Below are positions 50,170-63,948 of a DNA stretch of 64,000 bases, one piece after another. Both the position numbers and the translations under genes were made by a program. The notes beneath the pieces are model-generated. The model saw nothing but the letters and a program-made list of their open reading frames with translations, searched no databases and was not told where the DNA came from. The stretch is from Meloidogyne chitwoodi (taxonomy: Eukaryota; Nematoda; Chromadorea; Rhabditida; Meloidogynidae): NCBI GenBank assembly GCA_015183035.1, contig JACZZP010000005.1:2108001-2172000 (forward strand). Reading direction: 5' to 3'. Numbering within the stretch: the first letter of the stretch is position 1; every line of letters starts with the position of its first letter.

Positions 50170-51929
50170 ATGACTGAAAACTCTTCAAATTCAGATTTGG
50201 ACAAAGAGGTAAAATTTGTCAATTTTTAATAATTAGAGTATTTAATTAAATTTTAGATTTTTAGCCGCAAATTCTGCTATAAACTTTAAATAAATTAAAT
50301 TTAAAAAATAAATATATTTATTTATTTAGGATTCTTTTACAAATCTTAGTGACGAGCAAATTAGCCTTTTAGATGAATGTGTCAATAGTACTACTTCCAC
50401 ATCAACTCAAGTATCAAATTAAATTAAATATTCGATTAAATTCGCAAGTTTTTTTGTCCATTTGATTTCCCATTTATCATATAATTTATAAAAAATGCAA
50501 AGATCTAGAACAGAAAAAATAAATATTATAATTACGGACAAAACTTGCGGACAATGGTCATTTAATTAAAAATATTAATTATTTAAATTAAGCAATTGAT
50601 TGATGCAAATAGCTTTAATGTTGAAGAAATTAAAAAGAAATTTGAGAATGAAATGAATGTTTTAATAGAAGCGAAAATTGAAGCTAAAAATGGTTGTTTA
50701 GAAAATGAAATTAAAGCCTTAAAAAATGATGCAAATATTGTAGATAATTTTTTTAAAATAATTAAAGATTTTAAATTTTTAGGTAAATGATCATATTGTT
50801 GATATTTACAAAGAGATTGATGATTTGAATTTAAAAATGGATAAATTAAATAATATTGAAGATAACAAAAAAGATGTTGAGTTGGGTTATGATGAGAAAC
50901 AATTAAAAGAAGGAAAAGTATTGGTAAGTTTTTAGCATATTTAATTAATTTGCTGAAATTTAAAAATTAATTTTTTAAATTTTAGACAAATGAAGATTTC
51001 GTTGCACTTGTCAATAAAATAGATGAATTAACTTTTGAATTAAAACAATTAAAAGAGGGAAAAGGAGTGGTTAGTTTTATTTTTTATAATTATTTGTTTA
51101 CAATTAAAGTTTAATTTTTTCAGTGTTTTTTATATGTTCCAAACAAATGGAAATTTATTGATTCATATTGGGCATGTTGTGAAAAGAAATGTGTTAACAC
51201 TGACAAGCCAAATGGTTTTTGTTTTAATGGGAATGGATTTATTCAACTTAAAAGTGATACAGATATTAAATATATTAATTATAGAAAAGAATTTGGTTAG
51301 TTTTTATTTTTTTAATGTCAGTAATATTTAGATTTATTATTTTAATTAATTTAGAATCTAATAAATTAGCTGAAATAAAGGCTGAGAGTCCTTTTTATAA
51401 ACCAAATGAATTGAATTGTTCAACATATACACTATTTTATTATGAAGTTAAAGTTCAATTCGAAAAGAATTCAGCGATAGCTATAGGTCTTACAGGCGAA
51501 CATACTGTAGCTTTATGGGCATATTCTAAATTAATTTTTTATAAATATCATGGCGAATCTAAGCAAATTGACTTTCCTTCATTTTCCTTTAAAAATGAAG
51601 ATATTATTGGTTGTGGATTAGTTTATCCACCTCCAAAATTAAATAATAAATTACCTTATGTTTTTTTCACTCAAAATGGAAAACAAATTGGTAATTAAAA
51701 TATTTTAATTAATTTTAATTTATTTAAAATTAATTAATTTAAAGGTAAAGCTGTTTTATTGAAAGAAAATTGTTTAACTCTTAGACCATTTCTTCAGTTA
51801 AAAGGTCATTCAGTTGAAACTAATTTTGGCGAGGATTTAACTTCTAATCCATTTATTTATAACATTTCTAAGCATTATGTGGCTGAAGAATTTTATAAAG
51901 AGGAAGAAATATTTGACTACAAAAAATGA
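50170..51929 (+). CDS. SPRY-domain protein S3 (long form with coiled coil)
   Basis: Exons 50170-50208, 50330-50410, 50593-50739, 50783-50923, 50986-51069, 51124-51295, 51355-51690, 51745-51929; 1185 nt, 394 aa. Order: leader MTENSSNSDLDKE; exon 2 DSFTNLSDEQISLLDECVNS; coiled-coil exons (FNVEEIKKKFENEMNVLIEA, VDIYKEIDDLNLKMDKLN, LTFELKQLKEGK); Cys exon (WACCEKKCVNTDKPNGFCFN); SPRY core (LFYYEVKVQFEKNSAIAIGL, IGCGLVYPPPKLNNKLPYVF); tail. No signal peptide. The SPRY exon lacks the SQCCLNC segment present in most relatives. Intron 2 carries the CGGACAAAACTTGCGGAC footprint shared by the long-form family. Role unknown; a protein-binding scaffold is likely. Confidence 0.85.
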
Positions 51930-52251
51930 AGTAAATGTTTGATATTGAAATTAAATAAAAGATACAATTTTAATTGTTGAATATTTTTTTTAGTGGGTAT
52001 AAAAGAATAATTTGTTTTGGATTTTTTAACTTATTTTTTTGTCAATTTTATTGACTTCCAAAAATAATCATGGACACTTAAAATAATACAAATTGTTGAC
52101 ATCTATTTTAGTTTTTATTTATTTATTTTTAAATAAATAAATAACTATTAAGCAAAATACTTATTTTATAAAATTTAAAGTTATAACTATTCTCTTAAAA
52201 TATCATAATATTTATATTCTTCCAACATTATAGGAGGGTGCAATTTTCTTA

Positions 52252-60983: not shown

Positions 60984-61790
60984 TTTAAGAAATTTAATAA
61001 ATAAAAAATTCTGAAAAAATTTTAATGGAAAATTTAAATACACAAATGGTAGGGTAAGGGGCAAAACACAATCTTCCAAAATACAATCCGACCAAAACAC
61101 CATCTAAAAAAAATATTTTAATTTTAAGTGATTTATTATATTTTAAATTAAAATAAACGCGTTTTTTCGTATTTTTAAATGTTTTTATGAGATATTTTAA
61201 GTTTTCAGAAAAATATGTTTAACAACACTCAAAAAGAAAAAAACAAAACATTTTTTTAGATGGTGTTTTGTCTGGATTGTGAAGTAAAAATGTATAAAAA
61301 TGAATAAAAAAAGTAATCTTTATGAATGAATATTTACATATTTTTAAATTGACCAATATATTTTTATTAGACATTTAACTTGCTTCAAAATTGAAGTATT
61401 TAAATTATTATAAATAAAAGACAAAGATAAAAGAAATTTAAAAAAATTTATTGTTAACAAGGCAATTTTCCCAGAATTTGAAAGGAATTATATTAAGGTA
61501 AACTTTTTTTTGACCGACTCTTCTCTACTTAAAATACTTAATTTATTATTTAACATCAATTAAGCCTTAAGCAAGTTGAATATTTCTAATATAAATAGGT
61601 CAATTGAAAAATATAAACATTCACTCTTAAATATTATTTTTTGTTTTTATATCACTGACAAAATAAATTTTTTGTATTTTTTTTATTTTTTCCGTTCATT
61701 TTTTTATAAATTTTTTACTTAATATATAATTTATTATTTAAATTTTATGTTAAAATTTTTAGCATTTTTTAGTTATTAAATTTTTATAAA
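60984..61790. other. Divergent intergenic region between S5 and S6
   Basis: A shared upstream region of two divergent SPRY genes. 61080-61265 has an inverted pair around CAAAACACCATCTAAAAAAA and TTTTTTTAGATGGTGTTTTG, a MITE-like remnant. 61370-61600 is the CATTTAACTTGCTT dispersed repeat also seen at 43.0 and 45.1 kb. Confidence 0.55.
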
Positions 61791-63948
61791 ATGACTGAAA
61801 GCTCTCAAAATTCTAATTTGGACAAAGAGGTAAAATTAAACAAATTAAGATTATTGTGAAAATATAAAATTAAGGTACTTACGTATTATCCCTACGCACT
61901 TTTGCGGACAAAGTTTTTGCGGACAAATTTATTTATTTATATAAAACAATTACAAAAAATCAATCCAATGCCCAATATTTTCCCCAAGCAAGTATAATTT
62001 CTTCAAAAACGTCTCCATCACCAATCATTTTCCTCCACATAAACTCAGCAAAATAACTCTCTAAATGATGACGTGCTGTACCTCGATGCTTCTTATTACG
62101 CCATTTGGCACTCCCAAACTGGACGTTGTTTGTGATAAAGTTTCATTTCATGTTTATCGCGACAAACTCTAGTTTTGTGTAGAAGACCACGATCTTGTAA
62201 GAATTCGATGGCATCTTTTTCAGTTGTTGGCAAATCCCAAATTTTCATTATAAAAAAATAGATAATAAACTGTAATAGAAATGGTAAAATAACATTTATT
62301 CTTAACTTTCATATTTATTATCCATCAAATTTAATTTTGAATTTGAGTGACAACTATATTTGAAGGAAGGAGGAAAATAAATAAATTTGTCCGCAAAAAC
62401 TTTGTCCGCAAAAGTGCGTAGGGATAATACGTAAGTACCAAAATTAATTTAAAAATTAATATATTCAGGATTCTATATCTGATCTTTCTGACTCACAAAT
62501 TAGCCTTTTGGACGAATGTATTGAAAATGTTGACACTTCTAAAACGGTATTAACCTAAAATAAGTGACCAAAGTCTCAAGTTTTGTCCGTTAAAATAATA
62601 TATATTTCCTAATAAATTACAAAAAAATTAACTGAAAAATTAGTGAACAAAACTTGCAGAAAATTTGTCATTTAATTAAAAATACCAATTTTTTAAATTA
62701 AGCAAACAAAAGATGTAATTGTCTCTAATATTGAAGAACATCAAAGCAAAATTATAAAACTTCTTAGTAATGCTTTAATGCAAGAAAAAGTTGAAAAAAT
62801 TGAAGCTAAAGATGATTGTTTAGAAATTGAAATTAAAACTTTAAAAACTGATGCAAAAATCGTAATTAATTTTTTTTAAATATTTTATAATTTTTAGTCA
62901 ATTCAACTGCTTATTGATCTTAATAAAAAAATCGATTTATTTTTAAAAATTGATAAATTAAATATTGTAGAAGATAACAACAAAAATTATGTATTAACCA
63001 CTGAAGTAAAACAATTAAAGGAGGGAAGCAGTGTAGTCAGTTTATTTTTAGAATTATTTGCAGTTTTTTTAGTGTTTTTTATACGTTCCAAACAAATGGA
63101 ATATTGACTCTAGATATTGGATATGTTGTGAAAATAAATGTATAAACACTGATAGACCAGATGGTTTTTGTTTTAAAGGCAATGGATTTATTCAAATTAA
63201 AAGTGATACAAATATTAAATATATTGATTGTAGAGGAGATGGTGGTTAGTTTTTTAATATAAATTATATTTTATTGAGATTTTTATTAATTTTATTAAAA
63301 TGCTTTAAATTCCTATTATATTTCTAAATAATTAAGGAGGTGATAAATTAGCTCAAATAACGACGGAGAATTCGTTTAATAACCCAAAAGGAAATTGCAC
63401 ATTGTCTCAATGTTGTTTTAATTGTTCAACAGCTACTTTATTTTATTATGAAGTTAAATTTCAATTTGAAAAAAATGCAGAGGTAGCTATTGGTCTTAGA
63501 TACGAAGAGAATTATATAGCTTTATGGGCATATGCTAAATTAATTTATTATTACTCTCAAGGCAAAGCTAAGAAGATTGATTTTCCTTCATTTTCTTTAA
63601 AAAATGATGATATTATTGGTTGTGGATTAGTTTATCCACCTCCAAAATTAAATAATAATTTACCTTATTTATTTTTCACACAAAATGGGAAACAAATTGG
63701 TAAGTTAAATATTTTAATTAATTTTATTTATTTAAAATAATTAATTTAAAGGTAAAGCTATATTGGTGAAAGAAGATTTTTTAACTCTTAAACCATATGT
63801 TCAGTTAAGAGGTCATTCAGTTGAAACCAATTTTGGCGATGATTTAAATTCTAATCCATTTATTTATAACATTTCCAATCATGTAACTGAAGGGTTTTAT
63901 AAAGATGAAGAAATACTTGAACATGCGTACATTTACTATAAAAACTAA
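61791..63948 (+). CDS. SPRY-domain protein S6 (long form with coiled coil)
   Basis: Exons 61791-61829, 62469-62546, 62703-62861, 62898-63035, 63073-63244, 63337-63699, 63752-63948; 1146 nt, 381 aa. Order: leader MTESSQNSNLDKE; exon 2 DSISDLSDSQISLLDECIEN, very close to the homeodomain genes; coiled coil (NALMQEKVEKIEAKDDCLEI, LLIDLNKKIDLFLKIDKLN); Cys exon (WICCENKCINTDRPDGFCFK); SPRY core (TLSQCCFNCS, LFYYEVKFQFEKNAEVAIGL, IGCGLVYPPPKLNNNLPYLF); tail ending HAYIYYKN. Intron 1 (61830-62468) contains a 566-bp Merlin element, so transcription must cross it. No signal peptide. Confidence 0.87.
61874..62439 (-). mobile_element. Merlin-type DNA transposon, internally deleted, in S6 intron 1
   Basis: 566 bp with both ends GGTACTTACGTATTATCCCT (inverted) and the exact 8-bp duplication AAAATTAA (61866-61873, 62440-62447). 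The minus strand encodes a transposase remnant: MKIWDLPTTEKDAIEFLQDR, LLHKTRVCRDKHEMKLYHKQ, then a broken join into KWRNKKHRGTARHHLESYFA and EFMWRKMIGDGD. The N-terminal zinc-ribbon side and the GT..HLESYxAEFMWR end are Merlin/IS1595 features. The DDE core between them is deleted, so it is non-autonomous. Confidence 0.82.

Follow-up and report, generated by a model that had tools for sequence, protein, structure and literature searches.

Chimeric homeobox genes that appear to join a PBC-type homeodomain to the 5' end of a Cys-SPRY gene family in Meloidogyne chitwoodi

Background

Across animals, the homeodomains of the PBC-class proteins (Exd, Pbx and CEH-20/40) show strong conservation; the three-amino-acid loop extension (TALE) defines the superclass to which they belong. 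The present work concerns a small group of genes in the nematode Meloidogyne chitwoodi in which a homeodomain of apparent PBC ancestry, lacking this loop, follows the 5' end of genes for SPRY-domain proteins. These homeobox genes (H1 to H3) and their SPRY neighbours (S genes) are found on contig JACZZP010000005.1, called C26 here, in a genome of 47.48 megabases and 30 contigs; the gene models described below lie, with the exception of H3, in the window, that is, the whole 64,000-nucleotide (nt) stretch that was analysed (C26:2108001-2172000).

Several described systems bear on these genes (PMC numbers here and below refer to excerpts of the papers concerned). PBC/TALE homeodomains have 63 residues, with three extra in the loop, and a Gly at position 50 (PMC4901127). 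The pocket that receives the Hox hexapeptide is made up of the loop and helices 1 and 3; contacts of PBC proteins with Meis-type partners are made by domains upstream of the homeodomain (PMC5003318). The nearest precedent for the H genes is Caenorhabditis elegans ceh-86, in which a divergent homeobox has been added to the front part of a member of a clustered family with a cysteine motif; its authors proposed a translocation of either part, with ceh-84 as a possible source of the homeobox (PMC4448998). The H genes likewise combine a divergent homeobox with upstream sequence from a family that is duplicated and clustered, but ceh-86 keeps the cysteine motif, whereas the H genes have a probable PBC source, have lost the Cys exon, occur in three copies and appear to have exchanged pieces with their neighbours. 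The leukaemia fusion E2A-PBX1 resembles them in that the front of a PBX protein has been replaced. In that protein, self-association through PBC-B offsets the weak DNA binding of the monomer, and the parts that serve Hox partnership are dispensable (PMC6426973). It is, however, a somatic cancer fusion whose retained PBC-B self-associates, while the H genes are germline genes without PBC-B. The S genes, for their part, recall the SPRYSEC proteins of cyst nematodes (PMC5071358) as a large nematode SPRY family, but their starts are not signal-peptide-like: judged by eye, the N-termini of S3, S4 and S6 are polar and have no hydrophobic core.

Among the papers listed by literature searches, no title or abstract opening reports a PBC-SPRY fusion, Meloidogyne homeobox-SPRY genes or loss of the TALE loop, and a text search of an M. 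chitwoodi reannotation paper (PMC12614787) found the words SPRY, homeobox and homeodomain nowhere. What appears to be new is where the 3' module came from: a PBC homeodomain that would have lost its defining loop within a chimeric member of a SPRY cluster that is expanding.

One 5' module and two kinds of 3' end

Models of S3, H1, S4, H2 and S6 were built one exon at a time. All five have open frames and GT-AG borders, and the bounds of the region coincide with the start of S3 (50170) and the stop of S6 (63948). The features are as follows (homeodomain and SPRY E-values are from Pfam scans, and both SPRY matches fall under the Pfam cut-off):

50170..51929, plus strand: S3, SPRY gene (3.5e-5), open frame with GT-AG borders, relatives across Meloidogyne; exons 50170-50208, 50330-50410, 50593-50739, 50783-50923, 50986-51069, 51124-51295 (Cys), 51355-51690 and 51745-51929 (SPRY)
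52640..53937, plus strand: H1, chimeric homeobox gene, exon model, homeodomain 6.1e-15, best PDB matches PBX1/Exd; exons 52640-52678, 52722-52799, 52986-53144, 53463-53521, 53560-53771 (homeodomain), 53855-53937 (PBC-like tail)
53193..53246, plus strand: exon-4-like stretch of H1, recognised by comparison with H2 exon 4, without an AG acceptor, skipping probable
54549..56965, minus strand: S4, SPRY gene, eight exons (56965 to 54549), corrected model with open frame
57388..58885, plus strand: H2, chimeric homeobox gene, exon model, homeodomain 1.5e-15, best PDB match Exd; exons 57388-57426, 57481-57558, 57929-58090, 58137-58190, 58436-58494, 58541-58767 (homeodomain), 58815-58885 (tail)
58436..58494, plus strand: H2 exon 5, probably chimeric, with a SPRY-family 5' part, PBC-like last ~20 nt and a phase-2 donor
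58541..58767, plus strand: H2 homeodomain exon, probably PBC-derived, minus three TALE-loop codons, position 50 Lys rather than Gly
61791..63948, plus strand: S6, SPRY gene, exon model (1.8e-3); exons 61791-61829, 62469-62546, 62703-62861, 62898-63035, 63073-63244 (Cys), 63337-63699 and 63752-63948 (SPRY)
C26:2216951-2215441, minus strand, outside the window: H3, third homeobox copy, seven exons with lengths as in H2

The exon 2 donor of S4 is weak (gttttt). H1 is modelled with six exons because the acceptor AG of exon 4 is absent (near 53193); its frame is kept with or without that exon.

An earlier note on this DNA had described a single 5' module that continues into either of two unrelated 3' modules, a Cys exon plus SPRY or a homeodomain, and this description holds. 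Genome-wide, a Cys exon lies within 2 kilobases downstream, in the same orientation, in 14 of the 15 non-H loci that have exon 3; at the fifteenth, L027, the assignment is ambiguous, as a Cys exon is present downstream but another leader intervenes, so that the exon is possibly part of the gene that follows. None of the three homeobox genes (0/3) has a Cys exon downstream. The exon itself matches at least 53 places in the genome (E <= 0.001), 44 of them on C26. A third 3' class considered for loci L016, L024 and L029 was rejected, the frames downstream being of a divergent SPRY type.

The note had also placed exons 1 to 3 of S3, S4, S6, H1 and H2 in the same phase; the exons are indeed common to all five genes, and the phase is 0 in each. 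The shared part extends further than this: H2, S3, S4 and S6 are alike in exon 4, and exon 5 starts alike in H1, H2, S3 and S4 (TKE(D/E)FFAV in the H genes, TNEDFVAL in S3); S6 has no separate exon 5. H2 exon 3 matches at least 18 places in the genome, itself included (E <= 0.1), which comprise the three H genes and 15 others, with E-values of 2.6e-24 for H3, 4.4e-8 to 5.2e-5 for S4, S3 and S6, and 2.5e-4 for H1. For the H2 segment that reaches from the promoter end through exon 2 there are at least 37 matching places (E <= 1e-3, self included), 32 of them on C26; S6 is counted twice among the 37 because an insertion splits its match. Identity to H2 over this part is 97% for H3, 91% for H1 and 82% for the nearest SPRY gene, and intron 2 is common to H and S genes. 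The 380 bases of the divergent promoter region between S4 and H2 (57008-57387) recur upstream of H1 at 91% identity and upstream of H3 at 83%. The observation that S6 exon 2 is nearer to H2 than to S4 stands as a count (13/16 against 8/16, identities counted by eye), but S4 is the most divergent of the S genes, and S3 reaches 12/16.

Ancestry of the homeodomain

The H homeodomain has eight matches in all (E <= 0.001); the best of them outside C26, at 53% identity, is a gene on contig C4, and four of the eight are other homeoboxes at 33-42% identity. The C4 gene is of the PBC class, with two pieces that match Pfam PBC (1.4e-25 and 3.3e-11) and a joined fragment that matches at 3.3e-38. At the DNA level the H homeodomain exons agree with the C4 exon at 154/211 (H1), 164/227 (H2) and 150/227 (H3) bases. 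In both the H genes and the C4 gene the homeodomain exon is flanked by a phase-2 intron before and a phase-1 intron after, and the tail exon that follows is also alike; its protein similarity to C4 was equalled in 0 of 1000 shuffles, and a short similarity extends beyond the H stop codon. The best PDB sequence matches are Exd/PBX1 (H2 1.3e-17, H1 1.6e-10), with a three-residue gap exactly at the TALE loop, and an AlphaFold model of H2 exon 6 gives a three-helix fold (predicted local distance difference test score 90) whose nearest folds are again Exd/PBX1. These comparisons of sequence argue strongly that the H homeodomain and the exon after it descend from a PBC gene of the Exd/Pbx/CEH-20 type.

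With PBC genes the H genes thus have in common the homeodomain sequence, the intron phases and the following exon; they differ in having neither the PBC domain nor the three-residue loop. In the Pfam alignment the C4 protein places 60 residues over 57 positions, whereas H1 places 54 over 54 and H2 55 over 55, and H1, H2 and H3 lack exactly the three loop residues. The Gly that PBC proteins have at position 50 is replaced by Lys in H2 and H3 and by Glu in H1, and H1 also has Asn in place of Ile at position 54; Asn47, Asn51 and Arg53 of the recognition helix are retained in H1 and H2. The PBC domain (PF03792) was absent from H1 and H2 at E <= 1, and matches to it in the M. chitwoodi genome occur only on C4 and C1. 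In a homeodomain protein tree of seven rows, H1-H3 are separate from PBC (support 95/96), with H1 on a long branch and bootstrap support unsettled.

The PBC gene on C1 is an unlikely source, because an intron splits its homeodomain. This second PBC-class gene with a split homeodomain (L066, C1:2658068) is perhaps CEH-60-like.

The junction and the histories of the modules

The earlier note explained the two architectures by exon shuffling. The structure of exon 5 suggests otherwise for the founding event: in the H genes this exon starts like SPRY exon 5, but its 3' border has phase 2, as in the PBC exon, rather than phase 0. Its last 20 nt agree with the end of the PBC exon at 12/20 (H1), 13/20 (H2) and 14/20 (H3) positions, against a maximum of 12/20 among all 20-base stretches of nine concatenated SPRY exon 5 sequences. 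SPRY exon 5 can also be aligned, with gaps, to the end of H exon 5, which makes the position of the breakpoint approximate. The join thus apparently lies inside exon 5 and would represent an in-exon gene fusion and not a clean exon shuffle; exchange at the level of exons was found only for intron 2 to exon 3 of H1.

Separate trees of the modules support a shared 5' module that was later reshuffled, and they conflict for H1. In the tree of the part that begins at the promoter end and runs through exon 2 (13 of 18 loci; S3, S6, L016, L017 and L027 were dropped, having no single match that covers both ends), H1-H3 form one clade with support of 100/99, and because exons 1-2 unite them in this way a single origin of the three genes is favoured. 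In the exon 3 tree (18 rows), however, H2 and H3 are sisters (100/100), and H1 groups with two SPRY genes (C26 2193k and 2206k; 95/96). Constraining H1-H3 together for exon 3 was rejected by the approximately unbiased (AU) test (p-AU 0.023), which assumes a group named in advance, while here the tree had been seen beforehand. Intron 2 of H1 is also nearest to the same two SPRY genes. Probably a SPRY gene supplied H1 with the stretch from intron 2 to exon 3, or else H2 and H3 changed theirs, either direction being compatible with the data.

A proposed origin and mechanism

The best explanation overall, to which we give a probability of about 0.6, is that H1-H3 were born by fusion and encode a DNA-binding protein that is independent of Hox and Meis and carries a SPRY-family head. 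The parts of the H genes, their ancestry, loop loss, mosaicism, and conservation of frame and core are observations made here; expression, nuclear location, DNA binding and self-association we infer. The origin, a fusion of a PBC 3' end to a SPRY-family 5' end, is very likely. The mechanism, DNA binding without Hox or Meis and association through the head, is tentative, and we would place it a little below even odds.

In this proposal, one fusion would be ancestral to all three genes. The donor would have been the 3' end of a duplicated PBC-class gene (the end of the pre-homeobox exon, the homeodomain exon and the next exon), and the acceptor the 5' end of a gene in the tandem Cys-SPRY family on C26, with the join apparently inside exon 5. 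The product would have retained the promoter side, leader and helical head of the family, together with a homeodomain of standard length, and would have lost the PBC domain, which is the surface for Meis/UNC-62 partners, and the TALE loop, which contributes the Hox-docking pocket. With the PBC domain and the loop gone, the H protein most likely acts without Hox or Meis. It would be a nuclear protein that binds DNA by its homeodomain with altered specificity and no need of these partners; its SPRY-family head would serve for self-association or for contact with proteins of the SPRY family. By analogy with E2A-PBX1, the head could compensate for weak DNA binding. After the fusion, duplication would have produced three copies, and pieces would have been exchanged with SPRY neighbours.

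Read in this way, the H genes are a case of a master regulator turned into a new gene. The change may be young, and it may be an uncommon way for a regulatory protein to arise: after the fusion, a PBC homeodomain appears to have lost its loop, its Hox docking and its partner domain, with few synonymous changes from the parent (dS ~0.2 over 57 codons). Clustered adaptor families may be cradles for new genes, as ceh-86 and the F-box-linked selfish genes of Caenorhabditis suggest.

Several results weigh against this proposal. Fly Exd is no farther from the H homeodomains than is the C4 protein (H2 33 vs 31 and H1 28 vs 29 of 57; H3 28 vs 25 of 56), so that a source in the same genome rests on the introns, the tail and the DNA. 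A simple in-house heptad script, which is not a published predictor, gave a signal clear over shuffles only in S3 (3/300 as good); shuffles were as good in 26/300 for S4, 29/300 for S6, 30/300 for H1 and 19/300 for H2, a weak signal, and a strong form of the self-association module proposed in the earlier note is not supported so far. In other Meloidogyne species the SPRY type was found; no H-type match was found to the whole of H2 (640 candidates, E <= 0.001) or to its residues 112-229 (27 candidates) in a protein database that included M. graminicola, M. hapla, M. enterolobii and M. incognita, a negative that is weak because the same searches also missed every Exd/Pbx protein, which are expected in these species. 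The remaining adverse points concern decay. H3 has a TAG at Trp48 (residue 177 of 230) and is for that reason probably a pseudogene. H1 has lost its exon 4 acceptor, so that, with the H3 stop, part of the set is decaying, and after its homeodomain a 7-nt loss is compensated by a 1-nt gain (alignment to the C4 exon). Between copies, the ratio of nonsynonymous to synonymous change (dN/dS) of the homeodomain is 1.55 (H2-H3), 2.14 (H1-H2) and 1.17 (H1-H3). Values of dN/dS that are near or above 1 do not demonstrate purifying selection for the whole protein.

Alternative readings

A first alternative is that the H genes are functionless, decaying chimeras that persist as passengers of a tandemly duplicating SPRY cluster. 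The H3 stop, the missing H1 acceptor and the failure of the searches to find an H-type protein in other species favour this reading, as do the dN/dS values between copies, the value of 0.86 for exons 1-4 of H2 and H3, and an excess of dN over dS relative to PBC (57 codons; H1 dN 0.354, dS 0.214; H2 dN 0.329, dS 0.224). However, the frames of H1 and H2 are open, and the exon lengths of H1-H3 differ by multiples of 3 only, while two of the six introns differ otherwise between H2 and H3. Under simulated neutral change of 10-25%, 2-12% of runs left the homeodomain exon without a stop, and 0-0.2% left the entire H2 frame open. In addition, H1 equals H2 at 13/13 of what we take to be the homeodomain core positions, against 30/57 positions overall (P 4.9e-5); when H3 is included and its stop is counted as a change, the core agreement is 11/13 for H2-H3 (P 0.035) and 11/13 for H1-H3 (P 0.00097). 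We read this as a fold that is kept in H1 and H2 while other positions evolve fast, and we consider general decay unlikely, although it deserves more weight than the readings that follow.

Positive selection on the homeodomain was considered and is not proven: dN exceeds dS in 3/3 copy pairs and in 2/2 comparisons with PBC, yet for H2-H3 the comparison of nonsynonymous with synonymous change gives p 0.36. Nonsynonymous change in this pair exceeds that of introns 4-6 (p 0.028) and of introns 1-6 (p 5.8e-5), and the whole homeodomain exon (44/227 changed) compares with introns 4-6 (46/329) at p 0.10. Only fast change is claimed, because the 5' introns are unusually similar and provide a biased yardstick.

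A second reading, put forward in the earlier note, is that the shared heads pair across the two classes, so that homeobox partners tether SPRY proteins to DNA. The head is the same in both classes, and exon 3 of H1 groups with SPRY genes. A link through SPRY is also possible, because TRIM26 binds PBX1 through its SPRY domain (PMC10266081), although that was observed in human cells. In four of the five proteins, however, 19-30 of 300 shuffles score as well on the heptad signal, and tethering seems improbable to us.

We judge it similarly improbable that the H proteins compete with the parental PBC protein, occupying or blocking its sites and recruiting neither Hox nor Meis. Retention of Asn47, Asn51 and Arg53 in H1 and H2, with loss of the Hox-docking loop and the PBC domain, would suit such a competitor; against this, the changes at position 50 (Lys in H2, Glu in H1) and position 54 (Asn in H1) make it probable that the H binding site differs from the PBC site.

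A broader scenario, which we regard as a long shot, is that an expanding SPRY adaptor family captured a duplicate of an essential Hox cofactor, released from Hox and Meis, as its own DNA-binding arm, and that linked SPRY paralogues, which share the head and are kept matched to it by exon exchange, act as partners or antidotes. If this were so, a developmental regulator would have given rise to a gene pair that is self-contained, evolves fast and is either regulatory or selfish.

A strictly selfish toxin-antidote arrangement, in which H, as an aberrant copy of an essential gene, is the toxin and linked, head-sharing SPRY adaptors neutralise it, is very unlikely. The layout resembles that in Caenorhabditis tropicalis, in which toxins that are duplicates of the essential gene fars-3 are linked to fast-evolving F-box antidotes (PMC12680543), and two M. 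enterolobii relatives of the S proteins (P0065 and P0071, described below) carry a RING finger and offer a possible tie to ubiquitin ligation; but no RING was found in Pfam scans of S3 or S6.

Finally, it is scarcely credible that the similarity of the 5' ends is low complexity arising by chance, as the earlier note had allowed, or an assembly fault, even in a region that is repeat-rich and 20-27% G+C, given E-values down to 1e-24, shared introns and phases, and three H copies at separate places on C26.

The Cys-SPRY family

S3 matches 71 database proteins, of which 70 are labelled Meloidogyne (graminicola, hapla, enterolobii and incognita) and one is unnamed; a search for PDB sequences gave no match at E <= 0.01. 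Among 13 relatives of S3 that were examined, several start with MTE or TE and continue with a helical head, a Cys part and SPRY, and M. graminicola P0006 carries DSQISL and KSTGENNF, as do H2 exons 2 and 3. Since relatives with this head-Cys-SPRY order are found across Meloidogyne, the SPRY architecture is taken to be the older one. The review of SPRYSEC proteins puts the number of SPRY proteins found in M. incognita below 25, with a signal peptide in none of them (PMC5071358); by that measure the Cys-SPRY family may be large for the genus.

Two M. enterolobii proteins, P0065 and P0071, have a RING finger 5' of the Cys-SPRY part (1.3e-9 and 2.3e-9) in a TRIM-like layout, and M. hapla P0021 has a weak CUE match at its end (4.7e-4, just under the Pfam cut-off). 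Through the RING finger in these two relatives the Cys-SPRY family can be tied to ubiquitin ligation. TRIM proteins consist of a RING, a B-box, a coiled coil and a SPRY domain. The S genes resemble them in having a helical head followed by SPRY, but differ in that Pfam scans of S3 and S6 gave no RING or B-box. Parts of the Cys-SPRY family may have been swapped in other Meloidogyne genes too, and some of the RING and CUE joins may be annotation errors, because the proteins are predictions. M. graminicola P0062, which is named a phenylalanyl tRNA synthetase, starts with the family head and SPRY; it perhaps consists of two adjacent genes that annotation merged.

Other features of the window

Further family members in the window, all on the minus strand, are:

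40628..44855, minus strand: S1 and S2, additional SPRY-family copies, with open frames and repeats
59408..60983, minus strand: S5, a short SPRY gene without module exons 2-4 (gene model)

Near S1 and S2, an orphan leader on the plus strand (42196-42230) reads MTESSTNSNLD and then a stop, and is possibly a fragment of a head. Intron 1 of S6 contains an element of ~578 bp (61868-62445) with 71-nt terminal inverted repeats that are 97% complementary, and a 256-nt part of this element is 99% identical to 48139-48394. Intron 6 of S4 (55180-55470) has a G+C-rich repeat of the cccggt type, and a similar reading occurs 3' of the Cys exon in L019, a SPRY gene on contig C19. At 45202-46111 there are nine tandem units of 101 nt, with G+C above that of the surroundings and a palindrome, GAGGGCC...GGCCCTC. 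Potentially coding repeats rich in Glu and Lys, with units of 45 and 93 nt, lie at 21171-21722, and two arrays of 19-nt repeats (48946-49068 and 49597-49752) consist of TTTGGACTCAT-like text and its reverse complement.

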